This document shows, in pieces, positions 5,190 to 23,153 of a stretch of DNA of 23,186 nucleotides (within the stretch, counting starts at the first letter, position 1; every line of letters begins with the position of its first letter). Below the pieces are notes generated by a model. The model was not told the origin of the DNA. It saw only the letters and a program-made list of their open reading frames with translations, and did not search any database. Source of the DNA: a virus; the IMG/VR virus record IMGVR_UViG_3300013795_000075, positions 1 to 23,186 of that record; one strand, 5' to 3'. Both the position numbers and the translations under genes were made by a program.

Positions 5190-5564
5190 CTAAAGTCCTT
5201 CAAACCCTGAAGTAGAGTTAAGAGCTTCCAGCAATGATGGAGATGTGTTAATAACAATATGTCTACCAGCTGGAGCGTCTACAGTGGTAAACGTCCGTGG
5301 CAAGAACTGACCCGGATTATCAGGGTCTTCTACTAATTTGTTTGGTACGCTGTAAGTTCTAGCTTGATGTTTTCTCACCTCAATAGTTCCAAGACCTTGG
5401 ATTTTAATACCTTGACCTGCAATAAGACCAGCGATAGATAAATCACTTGCAGTATCCAGTACTTTATCAAGTAGAGTTTTTGTAATAGTTACACCATCTT
5501 CTGTTAGTTTTGCATGGATAAACGCTCTAGCTTCTGCTTCGTTGATTGTATTTTCTTTTGTCAT
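5190..5564 (-). CDS. HU/IHF-family-like DNA-binding protein
   Basis: A 124-residue protein with the HU layout. Two N-terminal helices (about 6-45) are followed by the GQGIKIQGLGTIEVRKHQAR strand region, equivalent to 'v.l.gFGtF.vr.R..R' in HU. A longer-than-usual arm (about 75-100, containing PDNPGQ) follows, then the closing strand and helix NTSPSLLEALN. HU proteins bend DNA as dimers. The arm differs from canonical HU, with YSVPNK where RNP(Q) is expected, so a changed DNA preference or a structural role is possible. The gene has its own good Shine-Dalgarno (AAGGAG). It is flanked by two hairpins (5612-5632 and 5162-5181) and breaks the otherwise gapless tail operon, so it looks like an inserted accessory gene. 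Confidence 0.72.
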   Translation of the reverse strand: MTKENTINEAEARAFIHAKLTEDGVTITKTLLDKVLDTASDLSIAGLIAGQGIKIQGLGTIEVRKHQARTYSVPNKLVEDPDNPGQFLPRTFTTVDAPAGRHIVINTSPSLLEALNSTSGFEGL

Positions 5565-9574: not shown

Positions 9575-10285
9575 TTATTTAATCCATACAGCCATGTAGC
9601 TTGATTTTTTAATATAGCTTGCGGTGGTAACCCTTACTCTAGTTGACTCGTAGTAGTAGTACATATTGACATTAAGATTACCAGCGTAATCATAGTTTTC
9701 AAATCTATAAATAGGTACTGCGGTAAACCCCTTAAGATGTGCCATTGTGTACCCCGATGGAGGATATACATAAAATGTCCTAACGTTCCCAACTATTCCC
9801 CTAGTTGATGTAACGTCCTTAATCCCTAACTTAGCTCTTACCTGTGCTATAGTAGAAGTTCTAATACAATTATCACTCTCTGTATCTACTAACGTAGCAA
9901 ATAAATTACAATTTGCATTTCGTGTGTCATACTGCATTCTAAAAAGTCTTGCGTGTATATCTCCGAGACTATCTCTTTTGGCTATTTTATTTGCTGCAGG
10001 ATTTGTGACTGACCCTACTAATACATCTGAAGCAAGAACGTATGGATGTTCATGTTCTACCTCACTTTTTATCTGTGCTAAAGTTTTACCCTCAAGCTTT
10101 GTAGCGTCTATGTCCGATTTGACCTCTGCTAAAGTTTTGCCCTCAAGCTTTGTAGCGTCTACTTGTTTATTGTCCAAATCGTGCATATCGCTATCTATCT
10201 CTTCTAAAGCTTGTTTTATAAGTGGATAATCCACGGATAATGAAACACCTTTAGGAAGAGGATATTTTTTGTTTACTGTTTCCAT
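9575..10285 (-). CDS. Short tail fibre / receptor-binding protein
   Basis: A 236-residue protein with fibre-like architecture. Its N-terminus matches other tail-fibre starts (PLPKGVSLSVDYPLIKQALE). A tandem 17-residue repeat beginning DATKLEGKTLA occupies residues 43-76, a repeat type common in trimeric fibre shafts. Residues 90-150 contain KIAKRDSLGDIHARLFRMQY, another common fibre element. The C-terminal domain is Tyr-rich (NMYYYYEST) and ends in SYMAVWIK, like fibre tips that contact receptors. Its ATG overlaps the stop of the large upstream gene (TAATG). The receptor cannot be predicted. Confidence 0.8.
   Translation of the reverse strand: METVNKKYPLPKGVSLSVDYPLIKQALEEIDSDMHDLDNKQVDATKLEGKTLAEVKSDIDATKLEGKTLAQIKSEVEHEHPYVLASDVLVGSVTNPAANKIAKRDSLGDIHARLFRMQYDTRNANCNLFATLVDTESDNCIRTSTIAQVRAKLGIKDVTSTRGIVGNVRTFYVYPPSGYTMAHLKGFTAVPIYRFENYDYAGNLNVNMYYYYESTRVRVTTASYIKKSSYMAVWIK
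10078..10161. repeat. Direct repeat inside the fibre gene (33 bp, 51-bp period)
   Basis: Positions 10078-10110 and 10129-10161 are the same 33 bases with one mismatch. The offset of 51 bases equals 17 codons and keeps the reading frame. It encodes the duplicated fibre peptide. The near-identity at DNA level suggests a recent duplication or ongoing slippage that could lengthen or shorten the fibre shaft. Confidence 0.85.
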
Positions 10286-13200
10286 TAACTTATAATTCCT
10301 CTCATATTTTTAACTTCAGGACGATTTACATCAGTTGATGTTATTTCTATTTTAAATCGTGTTTTTAAGATGTCTAAACTATCTGCTTTAAAGCACATTT
10401 CCACAAAACCATCACCAATAAAACGATTTTTCGATGTGTCTCTAACCAAAGGTACAAACGTACCATCTACTTCGGAAAATAGGCTCACAGCCTCTGATTG
10501 CTCTTTAATGTCTACGTAAACATCTACCTTAGTACCTGTTACTTCAAATTCTCTACTTATGTATGTAGATTTTTCAGATACTCTACCTACAGCTAAAGTA
10601 ATATCTTTATCAATAATAGGTGTAAAATCACGGCTAGATGTGCTAAGCAATGCACTTAAAATAATTTCACCTGTATAGCTTTCAAATGAAGTTAAAGAGA
10701 ATTCATTTAAATTAATTTTATGATTACCTCTATCTGTCAGCGTAGCGGTATATCTAACAGACGTTCCTACATATAATTTAGATGTAGCCATAAGATATAA
10801 ATCTGTGATATTTTCAACATTTACACGCCCAATCTCTTTAGTGAATGTTTCATAAAAATATGGTTTTTCAACTACTAGGGATAAATCTTCTTTTTGATAA
10901 GCCGTCCATGTTGAACCGTTGCTTGAACTCAACAAAACTCCAGCGTAAGGTTGTTTTTGTACCCATTTCTTAGCCTGTACATCAAACGCTCCCAGCTTTG
11001 CAGTAGCCACACGACCAACTGCATCACCACTTTCCACTATGAGTGCATACTCTTGATGAGCTTCGAGTAGTACAGGTGAGTCACACTTAAATGTATGCCA
11101 CCCACTTTCTAAACTATCAGCATCATAGGTTTGTGTAAAGATAGTTTGTTTCATATCAGGCTCACCAACCGTTGTTTTACATATAATTAATTTTATATAG
11201 GTGATAGGTAATGTCTCGATATAGAGGTTAAACTCATGAGTAAATGTATCTTTATCAAAGAGTATCGTTTGCGCCAATGGATCACGCCAAAAAAGAAGCA
11301 CTCTTTTACTTTGTGGGACGGTAACCCATACATCTTCAACCACTATACCGCTTGTACGACCTTTTAATCTCACAAGGTTATGACCACTTACAACCCCTGC
11401 AGGTGTTGTAACTGTAGTATCTACTCTATACTTATCATCAGAAATAAGTATCGTTTGAGCTTGACCAGCTTTTTTACCATCCACATAGATATCTACTATT
11501 TCATTTGTAAATGTTTCTGCTCTGATAGAAAGAGGGATGCGCGGCACAACACTTGCCTTAGTAGAGTCTCCAGTACCAAGCACTCTTGACCTGGACCATA
11601 CTATTGTAGATGTATTCACACCTGTAAAATGACCTGTATTATAATAAGTGTTATTGGCTACCCATCTATATGTAGCAGGTTTCAAAGTCATTCTGTTACT
11701 AGGTGCTGGTGCTTCTATAAACTCATTTATTAGCCTATTGTCAGTTCTAGCAATTTGATTTATAAGTGTACCTACCATGACATACGGCAAAGCGATATCT
11801 GCATCAAAGTTAAAAGAATAAGGTGTAAAATTTATCTCAGGGACTAAGCTTTTATTGGCTATTACAGCGTTTTGTTCTAAACCTAAATCTCTTATGTCAT
11901 CATCATAAAAAGGGTCAACAAATATTTCACGTAAATTAAGTGTAGGGTCTATGCCTTTAGCATCATTTCTTAATTCAATCTTAGCAACATTATATTCTAT
12001 GTCACCTACACGATTAAATAGCGTATGTAGTTCACTCATTTTCACCGTTTTATCGTAATCCAGCAGTATAATAGGATTTTGATTATGCTTAATTTCTACC
12101 TCTGCCAGTGATAAGCCTATAGTTGCTTTTGGTGCAATAGGATTAAACTCATCAGCGATACCTGTAAGTATTTCAAACTTTCCATCTCTCGTTAAAATAA
12201 GTCTATCTCTACGAGTAAGGTAATAATCATAATTTACATAAAAACTACTACCACTTGCTAAACCATTAAGTGTGATACTGTTATCTGTATGCTCTAAATT
12301 TTCCAAATGCGTTTGATACTTGTATTTCACGCTATAAGTAGAGCTGGGAGCTGGTTCATTAACCGCATTATCCCATTTTAAAAAATCACCGTTAAGAACA
12401 AAATCTGTACCAGCCACATAAGTAGTAGTACCCTGTTTTATCTCTAATATTTCAACAACTGGAGTATGAGGCAAAACATCAGTAACTCCAGTATAAGAAC
12501 CATGTGTTACATTTTCAGTAATTAACGCAATGCCCACAACCCTATCTACATTTCGCAAAGGTGTATGACGTAAGATATACTCACCATCACCATTAAAAGT
12601 ATGAGGTTCTGCTACTGTACTTTGCACATCTGAAGCAAATGGTACAGCTACCTTTTGGCTATATTCAAATATAAGCTCATCACCATCTACATGACCGTTA
12701 CCAGCTTCTACACTCAATATATGCTCTCCAGCATCATTATCATCATGGTCAAAAGAAGTGTTAAGACCATCTACCACATAAGAACCGTTAGAGTCATAAT
12801 CATATCGTGCCACTATTTTTCTAGCACCCTCAAGCTCAGGTGCTATACGTTTAGTACTTTGAAGTATGCCCTCTCTATAAGTAAATACAGCATAAAACAC
12901 TTCGCCATCTTCAAGCTCATCTTCTCTGCACCAGCGACCATTTACCTGTAATCTATCACCACCCTCTTCTTTGTACCCAGCCGTTGCTATAGCAGGGTCT
13001 AAAAGAGTGACATCTTCCAAGGATGAGATTATCTTCTTACTCACTGCAGAACCTATGGTAACAACTGCTTCTAAATCTATATTTATCTCTCTTTGTGGCA
13101 CGGAAATGGTATAACCATTGGCATAAATAAGTGACTTTTCAACCGTTACTACATCAAGCGATAAATTTATATTACCGCCTCTAAGTATAGAACCATCTTC

Positions 13201-13347
13201 AAATACTGCACTAGAAATATTTTTATAGTCATCTCTTATATATGCTTGTAACTCATTTAGTTCAGCACTTTGTATATATCTGCTAGGATAAAACTTAATC
13301 TCTTTGTAGTTTTGTGCTGGGGAAAATCTATTGTAGTAAGGTGTCAT
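10285..13347 (-). CDS. Large DUF4815-like tail fibre/spike protein
   Basis: A 1020-residue protein whose start, YYNRFSPAQNYKEIKFYPSR then YIQSAELNELQ, followed by FEDGSILRGGNIN, matches my memory of the N-terminal DUF4815 domain of phage baseplate or fibre proteins. No search was run. The rest is beta-rich with many short strand/turn units and no membrane segment. A probable middle region (about 530-760) has DPLAQTILFDKDTFTHEFNL, and a C-terminal jelly-roll-like part ends MRGIIS. It sits where P2 has gene H, so it probably forms the main fibre or spike stalk on the baseplate, with the next gene as the tip. Its SD (AGGAG) overlaps the stop of the preceding gene. Confidence 0.75.
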   Translation of the reverse strand: MTPYYNRFSPAQNYKEIKFYPSRYIQSAELNELQAYIRDDYKNISSAVFEDGSILRGGNINLSLDVVTVEKSLIYANGYTISVPQREINIDLEAVVTIGSAVSKKIISSLEDVTLLDPAIATAGYKEEGGDRLQVNGRWCREDELEDGEVFYAVFTYREGILQSTKRIAPELEGARKIVARYDYDSNGSYVVDGLNTSFDHDDNDAGEHILSVEAGNGHVDGDELIFEYSQKVAVPFASDVQSTVAEPHTFNGDGEYILRHTPLRNVDRVVGIALITENVTHGSYTGVTDVLPHTPVVEILEIKQGTTTYVAGTDFVLNGDFLKWDNAVNEPAPSSTYSVKYKYQTHLENLEHTDNSITLNGLASGSSFYVNYDYYLTRRDRLILTRDGKFEILTGIADEFNPIAPKATIGLSLAEVEIKHNQNPIILLDYDKTVKMSELHTLFNRVGDIEYNVAKIELRNDAKGIDPTLNLREIFVDPFYDDDIRDLGLEQNAVIANKSLVPEINFTPYSFNFDADIALPYVMVGTLINQIARTDNRLINEFIEAPAPSNRMTLKPATYRWVANNTYYNTGHFTGVNTSTIVWSRSRVLGTGDSTKASVVPRIPLSIRAETFTNEIVDIYVDGKKAGQAQTILISDDKYRVDTTVTTPAGVVSGHNLVRLKGRTSGIVVEDVWVTVPQSKRVLLFWRDPLAQTILFDKDTFTHEFNLYIETLPITYIKLIICKTTVGEPDMKQTIFTQTYDADSLESGWHTFKCDSPVLLEAHQEYALIVESGDAVGRVATAKLGAFDVQAKKWVQKQPYAGVLLSSSNGSTWTAYQKEDLSLVVEKPYFYETFTKEIGRVNVENITDLYLMATSKLYVGTSVRYTATLTDRGNHKINLNEFSLTSFESYTGEIILSALLSTSSRDFTPIIDKDITLAVGRVSEKSTYISREFEVTGTKVDVYVDIKEQSEAVSLFSEVDGTFVPLVRDTSKNRFIGDGFVEMCFKADSLDILKTRFKIEITSTDVNRPEVKNMRGIIS

Positions 13348-17988: not shown

Positions 17989-18678
17989 TTAACTTTTTAA
18001 AATCCTACCAACCACCATACCAATTATTTCTATATAGTCTTGACTTTCATCTGCTTTTATAGTTTCACTCTCATATACTTTATTACATGAAGAAATGACT
18101 ATATCACCATTGCTTTTGAAACATAAATTTTTAATCATAGTACCATGTGCTGCGGTTATCACATATTTACCATCCATAAATCCCATATCACTATTAAAAT
18201 CACAAAAGATAACTATATCTCCAGCATCCACATAAGGTATCATACTGTCACCTATTACCAATATTGAACGTAATTTCTTATGATGATATTTTTTAGATAC
18301 AGCCATTTTATCAACATACATAACATCGGCTATTTCATCCATTCCGACTAAGTGACCAAGTGACCCAGCACCAATATAGCCACTAAGCATATCAACTTTT
18401 AATGTATTAGATACCATGGGTCTTACGCTTGGCATTTTTTCTCTTAATATTGCATCCATTGCTTGTGTAGAGTCATCAAATAAAAACTGCTCAGGTATGC
18501 CTAAGATATCTGCCAATGCTATAATTGTTTTAATCTTTGGATTTGCTCCAGACTCCCAACTTTGAACATTCGCGTTACTACTTTTAAATCCATATAATGC
18601 AGTAATTCTATATGCCAAATCAGCACGTGTCATATTTAACTTTTGTCTGTATTTTTTTAAATTCTCTCCAAATGTCAT
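17989..18678 (-). CDS. CI-like repressor with S24 self-cleaving domain
   Basis: A 229-residue repressor. Residues 4-60 form an XRE-type helix-turn-helix (TRADLAYRITALYGF, VQSWESGANPKIKTIIALAD). The C-terminal S24 peptidase-like domain has the cleavage site A104-G105 (YIGAGSLG), the nucleophile S145 in GDSMIPYVDAGDIVI and the general-base lysine K183 in GTMIKNL, spaced as in LexA and CI. Binding keeps the prophage silent; RecA-stimulated self-cleavage after DNA damage releases it. The start has AAAAGGA seven bases upstream. It faces a divergent two-HTH regulator, and operator candidates lie between the two. Confidence 0.93.
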   Translation of the reverse strand: MTFGENLKKYRQKLNMTRADLAYRITALYGFKSSNANVQSWESGANPKIKTIIALADILGIPEQFLFDDSTQAMDAILREKMPSVRPMVSNTLKVDMLSGYIGAGSLGHLVGMDEIADVMYVDKMAVSKKYHHKKLRSILVIGDSMIPYVDAGDIVIFCDFNSDMGFMDGKYVITAAHGTMIKNLCFKSNGDIVISSCNKVYESETIKADESQDYIEIIGMVVGRILKS

Positions 18679-18791: not shown

Positions 18792-19241
18792 ATGCTAAAA
18801 GTATCATACATCGCTACCACACTAGAGATAACATTTCAACAAGTGCATAATTACATTAAAAAAAAACAACTTAAGGCAACTAAGTGTGATGGACATTGGC
18901 TTATAAAAGAAGAAGATTATAACTTTTTTTTCAATACACATTTTATAAATAGGCACAATAAAAAAGGTGTTAAAATTCCATCAAATGAACAAATACAGAT
19001 ACTTAGAGATTTTATAGCAGATTATGATAATAATAACTTACTTCCAAAATATTTTCAAAAAAAATATAAAAATATTGACTCACTCATACCACCATTAAAA
19101 ATTTTTTATATAGCAAAAAGAAACACTTTTATACTGAAAGACAAATCAACCATGACAATAGTAGACTTATCTGAAAAATATAATTTATCTATATCACAAA
19201 TCAACAGAATAATTAAAAAATCAAAAGAGAGGGATAATTGA
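18792..19241 (+). CDS. Regulator with two helix-turn-helix regions (Cro/early position)
   Basis: A 149-residue basic protein. The N-terminal part (1-45) has the shape of an excisionase/MerR-like HTH: YIATTLEITFQQVHNYIKKK, then GHWLIKEEDYNFFF. The C-terminal region (about 118-146) shows a second HTH-like pattern: MTIVDLSEKYNLSISQINRI. The divergent position relative to the repressor is that of Cro or an early regulator, so it likely controls the lytic switch. Unlike canonical Cro it is larger and carries both HTH types. The ATG at 18,792 has only a weak SD (GGAT). Confidence 0.65.
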   Translation: MLKVSYIATTLEITFQQVHNYIKKKQLKATKCDGHWLIKEEDYNFFFNTHFINRHNKKGVKIPSNEQIQILRDFIADYDNNNLLPKYFQKKYKNIDSLIPPLKIFYIAKRNTFILKDKSTMTIVDLSEKYNLSISQINRIIKKSKERDN

Positions 19242-19686: not shown

Positions 19687-20715
19687 ATGAGTACAGAGCA
19701 ACCCTCACTAGATGAGATTAAAACATCACTTGACATCGTGACTATTGCAGAGCTATACGGTGAACTTAAAAAAGTAGGTGCAAACTACAGTTATAAAGAT
19801 GACAAATCTATCATCATAAACCCATCAAAACAAATCTTTAGCAACTTTAACGGAGACATTATGAGCGGTTCAGTTTTAGACCTCATTATGTACATGGAGA
19901 AGATAGAGCTAAATGACGCTATTAAGAAGTTAAAAGAACTAGCTGGAGCAGAAACCTATACCATAGACCCAGCCAAACAACTGCAACGTAAAACAGAAGC
20001 CTCTAAAAAGAAAGTTGTTGATTTCCAAAAGTTAGGTCTTTTTGCTAAAAACGACCTCACAGCAGGTCAAGCTAAAAAACCCATACCTATCACCATAGAA
20101 GGTGATACTATTCTTAATTATCTATCTATAAATGAAGTCTATCATAAACTCTTTGAACGTACACAGTTTACCATGGAGTACCATGACAAAATCAACTACC
20201 TATATAACCATATCATAGGTTATGATGAGTATTTTAAATGTGCATCTATCATTATCAGAGACAGTACAGGACGTGTGGTCGATAAGTGTGCATACAGACC
20301 AAAAAAGCCCGACAGTTACGATAATTGGGGTGACCCAAAATATATACATAAAAACAGCCATACACGAGGTAATGACTTTTTATATCCCTTTCAAAAAGAA
20401 GTAGAAAGTATCTTAGCTAAAGAGGATTACTTTATCGTGGGGGAGGGCATTAAAAACGCTGTAAACGCTCTTATTTATGGAGTGCCTTACATTACTATAG
20501 AGAGCACATCAAATAAGGCTAATCATAACCTCATAGAGTATATCAAAGCCTTACTAAACAACCAATACAAAGTCATAGCCATGTTTGATGGGGATAAGGC
20601 TGGAGCTATAGGATACAAAGCTCTTAAAAAAGAACTGGGTACAGAGTTAGATAACTTTTTTGACTTTACATCAGATGAAGACTTCACTAGCTATATAGTA
20701 GGAGAAAACGCATGA
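19687..20715 (+). CDS. Phage primase, TOPRIM type with degenerate CHC2-like N-terminus
   Basis: A 342-residue protein. The start, IKTSLDIVTIAELYGELKKVG, looks like the N-terminal CHC2 domain of DnaG, but residues 30-60 have no cysteine, so the zinc site is lost. The SVLDLIMYMEKIELNDAIKKL stretch completes that domain. The C-terminal TOPRIM domain (about 247-320) keeps its acidic motifs: FIVGEGIKNAVNAL (E253) and IAMFDGDKAGAIGY (D301, D303). These coordinate metal for primer synthesis. It overlaps the helicase gene by ATGA, so the two form a split version of the P4-type primase-helicase. The SD (AAAGG) lies in the 3' arm of an upstream hairpin. Confidence 0.83.
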   Translation: MSTEQPSLDEIKTSLDIVTIAELYGELKKVGANYSYKDDKSIIINPSKQIFSNFNGDIMSGSVLDLIMYMEKIELNDAIKKLKELAGAETYTIDPAKQLQRKTEASKKKVVDFQKLGLFAKNDLTAGQAKKPIPITIEGDTILNYLSINEVYHKLFERTQFTMEYHDKINYLYNHIIGYDEYFKCASIIIRDSTGRVVDKCAYRPKKPDSYDNWGDPKYIHKNSHTRGNDFLYPFQKEVESILAKEDYFIVGEGIKNAVNALIYGVPYITIESTSNKANHNLIEYIKALLNNQYKVIAMFDGDKAGAIGYKALKKELGTELDNFFDFTSDEDFTSYIVGENA

Positions 20716-22268
20716 ACGCAACTACTGAAAAAATAAACCGTATCAAAAAGAGTGCAAAAGCAACGACTAAACCACTCAAACAGATAAATAAAGAAGAAGT
20801 TACAATATCAGTACAAGCTACTGATTTAAACGAAATTTTAAAACTCTCTAAACGTATTAAAAACTTTCAATCCATGTACGAAAAAATAACAGGGGAAAAG
20901 CCAAACAATAAAGATGTGTCACTAAGTGTATTTTACGAAAATATTTTAATGGATGATTTAAAGAAATATGATACAGATATAAAAAGCCAAAATGGACTTT
21001 ATTACATTTGGACGGGTAAATATTGGAAGTCACTTGAAAAAGATACCCTAAAGCGATTTATAAAACAATACATCAAAAAAAGAGGCATGATACTTCATAC
21101 TAACAGCAATGTAGTAGATGGTGTATTTAAAAATATCTCTATTTCCAAAGGTGGTATAGTTTATAAAGTGAATGAGAATACTCAACTACTAAACCTTAAT
21201 AATGGTGTACTTTTCATTTCCCCTAAAGAAATAGAATTTAAAACGCATAACAAAAAATACAATCTCAATTATTGTTTAGATTTTAATTATGATCCAAACA
21301 GTGAAAATACACTATGGCAGAATTTCCTAGACGATGTGCTGCCAAATAGACAAACACAAAGAACATTTCAACAAGTCATAGCAAATTTACTCATAAAAGG
21401 TTTGAAAATAGAAGTTCTACCCTTTTTATATGGTACAGGGGGGAATGGTAAATCAGTAGTATTAGAAGTCCTTACAGGTCTATTTGGACGTGAAAATGTT
21501 ACGACCTATTCACTCACTAAAATTACCACAGATGAAAAAATAAGAGCTAGAATAGCAGACGGTAAGATTATGAACCTATCCAGTGAAAACAACATGGGTA
21601 ATGTAAACGCAGAAACGGTAAAAACATATAGCTCTGGTGAGCCTATGGATGCAAGATTAAATTATGGCAACCCTTTTGAGATTTATGACTATGCAAAATT
21701 TTTAGGAAACATCAATAAATTATCAGTCATGGACAGTGAACGTACTATGGCAATAATTAGACGTATTATCATTATCCCTTTCATGCGTAACCTCAACGAA
21801 GATAGCACTATTAAAGTAGATATAGATTTACACAATAAAATACTACATAACAAAAGTGGTGTATTAAATTGGATATTAATCGGTATTACTGAGGTACTTA
21901 AAAATAGAGGTATTTATAAAAGTGACGAAGTCCAAAAAATGCTAAACAGATACACAAAAGATACAAACCCTGTAGCTATGATGATAGAAGAAAACGGCTA
22001 CATAATTGATACAGATAACAAATCCCCTAAAATTATGTACTTATCGCTTAAAGAGCTTTACCATGATTATATTGACTATGCCCATGAGATAGGTGTAGGA
22101 AAATTAAACAGAAACAACTTCAAAACAGACCTACTAGCATACGCTGGAGTAAAAGAGTTTAGTAGCCAAAATAAAATATGCTTTAACCTAATAAAGCCTA
22201 TCTCTGATACAAGCAACACACCACCTGTATCAGAAGAAGTAGAAGAAGATACCCTATTCAATGGTTAA
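20712..22268 (+). CDS. SF3-type replicative helicase (P4/D5 family)
   Basis: A 518-residue ATPase. Residues 75-200 form a D5_N/P4-like region. The AAA-like core has a Walker A GTGGNGKS (241-248), an SF3 Walker B in GKIMNLSSE (E292 at the end) and motif C as FLGNINKL (N333, sensor), followed by R350/R351 as candidate arginine finger. The C-terminal part (about 440-490) resembles the winged-helix region of such helicases, which often binds origin DNA. It probably unwinds DNA at the adjacent iteron region. Its stop codon lies in the loop of an 11-bp inverted repeat (22,254-22,280). Confidence 0.9.
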   Translation: MNATTEKINRIKKSAKATTKPLKQINKEEVTISVQATDLNEILKLSKRIKNFQSMYEKITGEKPNNKDVSLSVFYENILMDDLKKYDTDIKSQNGLYYIWTGKYWKSLEKDTLKRFIKQYIKKRGMILHTNSNVVDGVFKNISISKGGIVYKVNENTQLLNLNNGVLFISPKEIEFKTHNKKYNLNYCLDFNYDPNSENTLWQNFLDDVLPNRQTQRTFQQVIANLLIKGLKIEVLPFLYGTGGNGKSVVLEVLTGLFGRENVTTYSLTKITTDEKIRARIADGKIMNLSSENNMGNVNAETVKTYSSGEPMDARLNYGNPFEIYDYAKFLGNINKLSVMDSERTMAIIRRIIIIPFMRNLNEDSTIKVDIDLHNKILHNKSGVLNWILIGITEVLKNRGIYKSDEVQKMLNRYTKDTNPVAMMIEENGYIIDTDNKSPKIMYLSLKELYHDYIDYAHEIGVGKLNRNNFKTDLLAYAGVKEFSSQNKICFNLIKPISDTSNTPPVSEEVEEDTLFNG

Positions 22269-22280
22269 TCCATTGAATAG
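22254..22280. repeat. 11-bp perfect inverted repeat holding the helicase stop codon
   Basis: CTATTCAATGG (22,254-22,264) and CCATTGAATAG (22,270-22,280) pair perfectly around TTAAT, with the TAA stop at 22,266-22,268 inside the loop. No U-tract follows on either strand, so intrinsic termination is unlikely. It lies eight bases before the first iteron and may be a boundary element or an RNA 3'-end structure. Confidence 0.5.
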
Positions 22281-22308
22281 AGTAAAACCTAACAATATAA
22301 GCACTAAC

Positions 22309-22349
22309 CTAACAATCTAACAGTAACCTAACACCAAATCTAACAGTCA
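22309..22349. repeat. Left arm of 41-bp inverted repeat
   Basis: These 41 bases are the reverse complement of 22,544-22,584 with a single mismatch (40 of 41). The arm contains four CTAACA copies. The arms are separated by 194 bases. The near-identity suggests both arms are selected or were copied recently. Confidence 0.85.
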
Positions 22350-22352
22350 CCA

Positions 22353-22373
22353 AATCCCTACTACACCGTACTT
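22353..22373. repeat. 21-bp direct repeat, copy 1
   Basis: The 21 bases starting AATCCCTACTACACCG recur without change at 22,510-22,530, 157 bases away in the same orientation. Copy 1 lies three bases inside the left arm of the 41-bp inverted repeat. The sequence is more GC-rich than its surroundings and unrelated to the iteron. Confidence 0.85.
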
Positions 22374-22374
22374 A

Positions 22375-22396
22375 TACCTATATTTTTACCTATATT
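22375..22396. repeat. Tandem TACCTATATT repeat
   Basis: TACCTATATT occurs at 22,375-22,384 and 22,387-22,396, a 12-base period close to one helical turn, between copy 1 of the 21-bp repeat and an iteron. It may be an additional initiator- or host-factor-binding element. Confidence 0.6.
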
Positions 22397-22509
22397 GTTA
22401 GATTATTAGGTATACCCCCTAAAACTCTTCTTTTATGTACACCCCAAAAAAGATATGTTTACCCCACCCCCTACCTAAAACCTAACAATTTAATAATATT
22501 TTTTCTAAC

Positions 22510-22530
22510 AATCCCTACTACACCGTACTT
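22510..22530. repeat. 21-bp direct repeat, copy 2
   Basis: Identical to 22,353-22,373. It lies 13 bases inside the right arm of the 41-bp inverted repeat and directly after the CTAACA at 22,505, sharing one base with it. Confidence 0.85.
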
Positions 22531-22543
22531 TATAGCCTTTTTT

Positions 22544-22584
22544 TGACTGTTAGATTTGGTGTTAGATTACTGTTAGATTGTTAG
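22544..22584. repeat. Right arm of 41-bp inverted repeat
   Basis: Reverse complement of 22,309-22,349 except for one base (A at 22,566 where the left arm predicts G). It contains four TGTTAG copies spaced 8-12 bases. Confidence 0.85.
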
Positions 22585-22693
22585 ATTTGGTTTTTTACAT
22601 CTCAAATCTAACTTTTAAGATAAAGTTGTAAAAGTTTTCTATGTATTGAATTTTTATATAGGAGTAACTTTAGTTTATTTTGCATAAAGTACA

Positions 22694-22723
22694 TTGTAAT
22701 ACTTGAAGCTATCTAGTTATAAT
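22694..22723 (+). promoter_or_regulatory. Promoter of the last gene
   Basis: TTGTAA (22,694-22,699), an 18-base spacer and a perfect TATAAT (22,718-22,723) lie 25 bases before the ATG at 22,749. The gene therefore has its own expression and does not depend on readthrough across the origin-like region. Confidence 0.6.
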
Positions 22724-22748
22724 AAAAGATTAACTACAAAGGTGTACA

Positions 22749-23153
22749 ATGAATAAAGTAGCTACTGACACATTTTCAATTAATGCAGAGAGTCAAGATG
22801 ATTTGCTACAAATCCTACTTAAATTAAATAACCATACAGTAGCCACCTACTGTTTAGATATGGGAATAGATGAAGATACTCTATCAGGCAATCAAGAGTG
22901 GGCTATAAAATCACTTAGCACCCTATTAAACGCTGAGTTAATCCATTTAGGCTATGTAGCAAAGGATGCAAGGCATGAGGGCGTATTTGGAGAGTATGAT
23001 GAAGCAGTAGAAGCACTTAAAGAGGCTCAAAGTAATACAGATGACCTCCAGCAACCAATTATTATCAACAAAGAGCATATACTAAGCTCTGTACGCACAA
23101 TCAAAATATCTATCTTAGTAAATGCTATGAGATTAATTAAAGAGAAGTTTTAA
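22749..23153 (+). CDS. Hypothetical phage protein
   Basis: A 134-residue acidic, mostly helical protein without signal peptide or membrane segment. I do not recognise it. Visible features are a helical N-terminal half (SQDDLLQILLKLNN, NQEWAIKSLSTLLNAELIHL), a central Glu-rich DEAVEALKEAQ and a lysine-containing C-terminal helix. The start has AAAGGTG four bases upstream and its own TATAAT promoter. Its place after the origin-like DNA suggests an early or replication-associated gene, but no function can be assigned. Confidence 0.7.
   Translation: MNKVATDTFSINAESQDDLLQILLKLNNHTVATYCLDMGIDEDTLSGNQEWAIKSLSTLLNAELIHLGYVAKDARHEGVFGEYDEAVEALKEAQSNTDDLQQPIIINKEHILSSVRTIKISILVNAMRLIKEKF

Follow-up and report, generated by a model that had tools for sequence, protein, structure and literature searches.

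In the published description of PICI replication origins, an AT-rich region always lies between two iteron sets, an organization stated to be absent from every other known bacterial replicon (PMC6092414). The C-terminal domains of SaPI Rep and SCCmec Cch2 recognize iterons located directly 3' of their own genes (PMC7581432). In the annotated P4 ori, the iterons have the orientations ---+-- with spacings of 10, 11, 22, 43, and 10 (sites read from L081). In the archaeal plasmid pRN1, a proposed origin was placed 3' of the SF3-helicase gene, beside a terminator-like hairpin (PMC4234260).

The DNA analyzed here, referred to as the window, is the 23,186-nt stretch of IMG/VR virus record IMGVR_UViG_3300013795_000075, in which copies of the hexamer CTAACA/TGTTAG follow a gene for an SF3/D5-type helicase. 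An earlier note on this DNA had compared it with P4-type systems; the comparison was apt, but the closest published organization appears to be the PICI/SaPI origin (PMC6092414). As in PICIs and SaPIs, the putative initiator helicase has a primase gene upstream, the proposed ori lies directly 3' of the initiator gene (PMC6092414; PMC7581432), and two sets of short, element-specific iterons surround a central region, the sets of the window being in mirror orientation. The window differs in that its element carries P2-like tail genes and is not a satellite, that its primase is separate and of the DnaG/CHC2 kind, and that the mirror centre is C-rich and not AT-rich (63% AT against 70% around it). 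Nor does the window present the features of a whole PICI (a satellite relying on phage virion genes, integrase, rpr), since it has virion genes for baseplate J, hub GPD, tail tube, tape measure, P2 I-like, and sheath proteins. The feature would belong to a known kind of origin, with a new hexamer, CTAACA.

The likeness to P4 consists of a D5/SF3 helicase accompanied by short iterons and of half-units near the P4 ori spacing in three related loci, L046 (10, 11, 15, 41, 8), L044 (10, 10, 21, 45, 8), and L042 (8, 12, 24, 43, 8). These half-units have the orientation pattern of the P4 ori, and each of the three origins resembles a pair of P4-type units in face-to-face arrangement. In the window, however, the half-unit consists of four outer sites and an inner one in opposite orientation, the primase and helicase genes are separate (19687-20715 and 20712-22268) whereas alpha is a fused primase-helicase, and the iteron is CTAACA instead of GGTGAACA. 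P4 has split ori and crr regions; in the window, which is an incomplete phage, one cluster is present. SCCmec Cch2, like the window protein, is a helicase of the D5_N type, and its C-terminal domain binds iterons located immediately 3' of the Cch2 gene (PMC7581432), as is proposed for the window protein; its putative origin has only three 5-nt direct iterons, without mirror arrangement, and Cch2 is partnered with the CCPol-MP polymerase. The proposed pRN1 origin shares the position 3' of an SF3-helicase gene and the neighboring terminator-like hairpin (PMC4234260), and differs in being a stem-loop without iterons and in having a primase of another type fused to the helicase.

The iteron region and its neighboring genes

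Twelve exact copies of CTAACA/TGTTAG were located between positions 22,289 and 22,584 (22289+, 22309+, 22317+, 22328+, 22340+, 22396-, 22482+, 22505+, 22548-, 22560-, 22571-, and 22579-), spanning 296 bp and all lying in the 480-nt intergenic region 22269-22748, the first of them 20 bp past the helicase stop codon (Table 1). The observation made in the earlier note, with four copies per arm and others inside and outside the arms, was thereby confirmed. Dinucleotide shuffles of the region (2000) contained on average 0.54 and at most 4 hexamers, and elsewhere in the window no 400-nt segment had a 7-mer cluster of comparable size; the hexamer is not rare in the window overall, with 25 copies against 20 expected. 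The arms at 22309-22349 and 22544-22584, which the note had described as 41-base reverse complements with one mismatch, indeed matched at 40 of 41 positions with four hexamers each; at 92% matching, the inverted repeat reaches a length of 49 nt. Of the remaining four hexamers, three are located between the arms and one is outside them, and the degenerate hexamer TATTAG is found at 22404, beside the left inner iteron. Ten of 14 sites were paired by the mirror, and none of 200 random placements was equally good. This mirror layout would fit the suggestion that the inverted clusters serve as two putative binding platforms.

Table 1. Coordinates of the features in and around the proposed origin, by position in the window.
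Feature	Position	Strand	Remarks
Separate DnaG-type primase (CHC2 zinc ribbon)	19687..20715	+	342 aa; end overlaps helicase start by 4 bases
SF3/D5-type helicase, proposed replication initiator	20712..22268	+	518 aa; D5_N and DUF5906 core
Hairpin over helicase stop codon	22250..22284	+	DNA fold -10.3 kcal/mol, z -6.3
Intergenic region with proposed origin	22269..22748	+	12 hexamers; equivalent region with same layout in L004 and L033
Outlying iteron	22289..22294	+	Left of left arm
Left outer iteron set (arm)	22309..22349	+	CTAACA at 22309, 22317, 22328, 22340
Direct repeat copy 1, AATCCCTACTACACCGTACTT	22353..22373	+	Between outer and inner iterons
Left inner iteron	22396..22401	-	Opposite orientation to left outer set; place kept in L004 and L033
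Conserved central block AAAAAAGATATGTTTACCCCACCCCCT	22446..22472	+	27 nt; C-rich, G-poor strand; centre of mirror
Right inner iteron	22482..22487	+	Exact hexamer
Right inner iteron	22505..22510	+	L004 has ATAATA at aligned place
Direct repeat copy 2	22510..22530	+	Exact 21-nt match to 22353-22373
Right outer iteron set (arm)	22544..22584	-	TGTTAG at 22548, 22560, 22571, 22579; mirrors left set, 40/41
Promoter-like site for next gene	22694..22723	+	TTGTAA-18-TATAAT, consensus match only; 110 bp past last iteron
Downstream gene	22749..23153	+	134 aa; 41% identical gene in L004; unrelated gene in L033

Three features of Table 1 do not figure in the earlier note: the 21-nt direct repeat, the hairpin over the helicase stop codon, and the central block. 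The central block has one difference in the closest relative, L004, and its core GATNTGTTT is also central in a second relative, L033; it is a candidate melting or priming element. A 16-mer pattern from the block, TGTTTACCCCACCCCC, matched nine IMG/VR viral contigs. The A+T shoulders of the centre lie at 22370-22440 and 22470-22520, and the least stable DNA was located at 22610-22740, to the right of the iterons. No match to the 21-nt direct repeat was found in IMG/VR and no folding was found for its two copies, the L033 counterparts being small hairpins. In L033, AAATCCCTAAATATAGGGCTTTTT occurs twice at the matching places, where the repeated element differs from that of the window and forms the hairpin CCCTAAATATAGGG. 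The hairpin over the helicase stop codon has an equivalent in L004 (8919-8949; -10.0, z -5.9) with a changed stem sequence. Its T-rich tail is on the minus strand only, and it appears terminator-like for minus-strand transcription only. The Rfam scan of the window was empty and the tRNA scan found none.

The helicase matched the Pfam families D5_N (E 2e-10) and DUF5906 (E 1.5e-12), both above cut-offs, as well as PHROG DNA primase/helicase families with E values down to 6e-52, and its Walker A motif GTGGNGKS is invariant in three homologues. The C-terminal domain, about residues 396-500, is proposed to bind the iterons. The window helicase had no Pfam match to a winged-helix or Pox_D5 domain, and the match of Pox_D5 to the L033 helicase was weak and below the cut-off (E 0.0065). 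A PDB profile search gave weak matches only, to the C962R helicase core, and an AlphaFold model built from two sequences was unusable (pLDDT 38). The primase was recognized by Pfam Zn_ribbon_DnaG (E 2e-8) and as DNA primase by PHROG.

P2-like contractile tail genes (hub GPD, tape measure, tube, P2 I-like, and baseplate J) occupy the left 17 kb, and the sheath gene was recognized by PHROG. The same part of the window contains a gene for an HU/IHF-like DNA-binding protein on the minus strand between tape measure and tube (5190-5564), a staphylococcal-nuclease-like gene (2475-2984) that is located between those for the tape measure and a lysozyme-like protein and has a signal-like N terminus, and a 1020-aa tail-region protein (10285-13347) with a DUF4815 match (E 6e-126). 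No head gene was identified among the window genes examined, and neither an integrase nor a ParB gene among the neighboring genes examined. The window represents a partial phage; it stops about 0.6 kb past the iterons, and GC skew was uninformative at this site.

Conservation and change of the iterons among related helicase loci

The closest relative found, L004, is a Campylobacterales metagenome contig whose helicase is 78% identical to that of the window, and the gap downstream of this helicase has the window's layout with 42-nt arms and the word CTAATA. Alignment of the two regions showed that hexamer position 5 changed from C to T at 12 of 12 sites, while the other hexamer positions changed at only 1 of 60, compared to 81 of 222 (36%) in the spacers (other hexamer positions against spacers, Fisher P 2e-9). 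Because position 5 changed at every site and the remaining positions were nearly unchanged relative to the spacers, the hexamers are most likely all read by one common protein whose preference has shifted. L004 is a low-coverage MAG contig, and thus its exact letters need care; sequencing errors, however, do not take the form of one identical change at all 12 sites. In the arm spacers of L004, two positions changed identically in both arms and several changes broke pairing. Since some of these changes disrupted complementarity, it is probably exchange between the arms, and not pairing, that accounts for their being nearly identical even in the spacers.

The L033 helicase is 54% identical to that of the window, and genes for sheath, tape measure, and baseplate are likewise present on the L033 contig. 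Twelve CTAACA iterons with the same plan were found there, the layout being kept despite a different downstream gene. The C-terminal domains of the two helicases are only 42% identical, although the iteron word is shared. At positions 408, 436, 441, 479, and 498, the two helicases have a residue in common that differs in L004. IMG/VR scans with a single protein and with a two-row alignment found no relative, and a three-row alignment found one distant relative.

The survey covered 24 helicase loci: the window, L004, and 22 from Campylobacterota genomes. In 14 of the 24, the densest repeated 7-mer was located on the 3' side of the helicase at a distance of about 130-400 bp, and in one more it was about 1.2 kb away; nine had no detectable cluster. 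An absence of the repeats beside homologous helicases, which by the earlier note would have refuted its reading, was thus not observed: they are present 3' of the gene in the two closest relatives and, as lineage-specific heptamers, in most family members examined. The words found across the loci were TCTAACA, TCTAATA, ATGGACG, TGTCACA, GGTTACA, TAAGACA, TGAGCCA, TTTACCA, and AGTTAAC, in broad agreement with the helicase clades. Most loci with a cluster have mirror-image sets of sites about a centre, and in 9 of 15 loci tested this symmetry was equalled by at most 5 of 200 random placements, the mirror count of L042 being inflated by the near-palindromic TGTCACA. The centre is 82-87% AT in L046, L050, L059, L062, and L048, which include TAAGACA and TGAGCCA loci.

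A second concerted switch was observed between TAAGACA (L050/L059) and TGAGCCA (L048/L064/L065), with 8 of 8 clearly aligned sites switched between L050 and L048. Among its TAAGACA iterons, L050 (G262) keeps one CGAGCCA, at a place where L059 has TAAGACA, and this copy seems to be a remnant of the word used by its sister phages, TGAGCCA. L059 and L050, which share the word, have 67% identity in the helicase core and 76% in the C-terminal domain, whereas L059 and L048, which differ in word, have 75% and 57%, respectively. In this group the C-terminal domain tracks the iteron word; by the same sequence comparison, no such simple relation is seen in the group to which the window belongs.

Similar 3' clusters were found in Mycobacterium phage Malthus (L093 4092-4300), with opposed GGGGACAT clusters, and Lactobacillus phage JNU_P9 (L091 4041-4300), with opposed CCGTCAC clusters. 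Both are sequenced tailed phages, and the clusters lie in both cases directly 3' of the primase/helicase gene and with no origin annotated. Most sampled named phages with D5 helicases have no 3' cluster, and therefore the iteron design downstream of D5 helicases is not universal.

Proposed origin function and alternative explanations

Taken together, the repeats, their symmetry, the fixed place 3' of a helicase family, the lineage-specific words, and their concerted change indicate, with a probability that we put at about 0.88, that the iteron region is the replication origin of a Campylobacterota tailed phage or prophage, with the adjacent SF3/D5 helicase as initiator. The earlier proposal of an origin serving the adjacent primase and SF3 helicase is thus strongly supported by comparison with relatives. 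Several observations speak against it: the centre is not AT-rich relative to its surroundings, the least stable DNA lies to the right of the iterons, 9 of 24 loci have no detectable cluster, the C-terminal domains of the window and L033 helicases have diverged to 42% identity despite the shared iteron, and the Pfam search detected neither a winged-helix nor a Pox_D5 domain in the window protein.

According to the mechanism that we propose, the C-terminal domain of the helicase would bind the CTAACA iterons, with one helicase oligomer on each mirror-image set and the two in opposite orientations. The two complexes would then open either the C-rich/G-poor centre or the A+T-rich shoulders beside it, so that two hexamers could be loaded facing opposite ways and template be exposed for the separate DnaG-type primase. 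The primase would start on the exposed strand, possibly at block 22446-22472, and replication would presumably proceed bidirectionally with the host polymerase.

The best surviving alternative, itself improbable, is that the helicase binds these sites mainly for control of copy number or incompatibility, like P4 crr, and that the true start lies elsewhere in the phage. The P4 iteron region directly 3' of alpha is indeed crr, with the annotated ori about 4.5 kb away, and the window is a partial phage, so that an ori could be located beyond its ends. However, P4 crr consists of two direct 120-bp repeats and not of a mirror, no second cluster is present in the 23-kb window, and PICI origins of mirror layout occupy the matching place and act as ori (PMC6092414).

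Repeated sites upstream of genes are common as operators, and both the CI/S24-like repressor (17989-18678) and the HTH protein (18792-19241) of the window carry HTH domains. The hexamers might thus be operators by which one of these phage regulators controls the next gene. We consider this marginally less probable than a role in copy-number control, since the only good promoter match is 110 bp past the last iteron, L033 keeps the cluster although its downstream gene is unrelated, and the clusters track the 3' end of the helicase gene across many lineages; moreover, an operator with 12 sites, spread across 296 bp in two mirror sets, would be unusual.

It is more doubtful still that the inverted repeat of 41 bp works by forming a DNA structure, either a cruciform or a stem-loop origin of the pRN1 type, and not via its iterons. 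The arms are complementary at 40 of 41 positions and the proposed pRN1 origin is a stem-loop 3' of an SF3-helicase gene (PMC4234260), but a loop of about 194 nt would be required, the hexamer is the conserved unit and is also present inside and outside the arms, and in most related origins the sites are still mirrored but long perfect arms are lacking. In L004 the spacers changed alike in both arms at two positions only, and several changes broke pairing. The cruciform suggested in the earlier note is therefore a poor fit and was rejected as unlikely on loop length and arm evolution. The least probable explanation is that these are recombination or partition sites (integrase arm-type sites or parS): attP arms, as annotated in P4, also have short repeats in both orientations, but no integrase or ParB was found among the neighboring genes examined, no tRNA is present in the window, and from lineage to lineage the clusters stay with the helicase gene.

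Iteron words and a possible phage replicon design

There is somewhat less than an even chance that, in the origins of this phage-helicase family, the mirror scaffold stays fixed and the iteron word is swapped at all sites at once as the C-terminal domain of the helicase changes with it; the word would thus act as a label of replication compatibility. By changing the word, phages would perhaps escape the cross-use of their origins by satellites or co-resident phages.

Here the PICI-like iteron design was seen in a Campylobacterota phage that also has tail genes. The switched pairs, CTAACA/CTAATA with helicases 78% identical and TAAGACA/TGAGCCA, provide a ready set for mapping initiator-origin recognition and the evolution of its specificity. 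The added value lies in these two natural specificity switches and the comparative evidence, which make initiator-origin recognition directly testable. If the iteron word is indeed a compatibility label, PICI-type origins would be a common design of phage replicons and not unique to PICIs.
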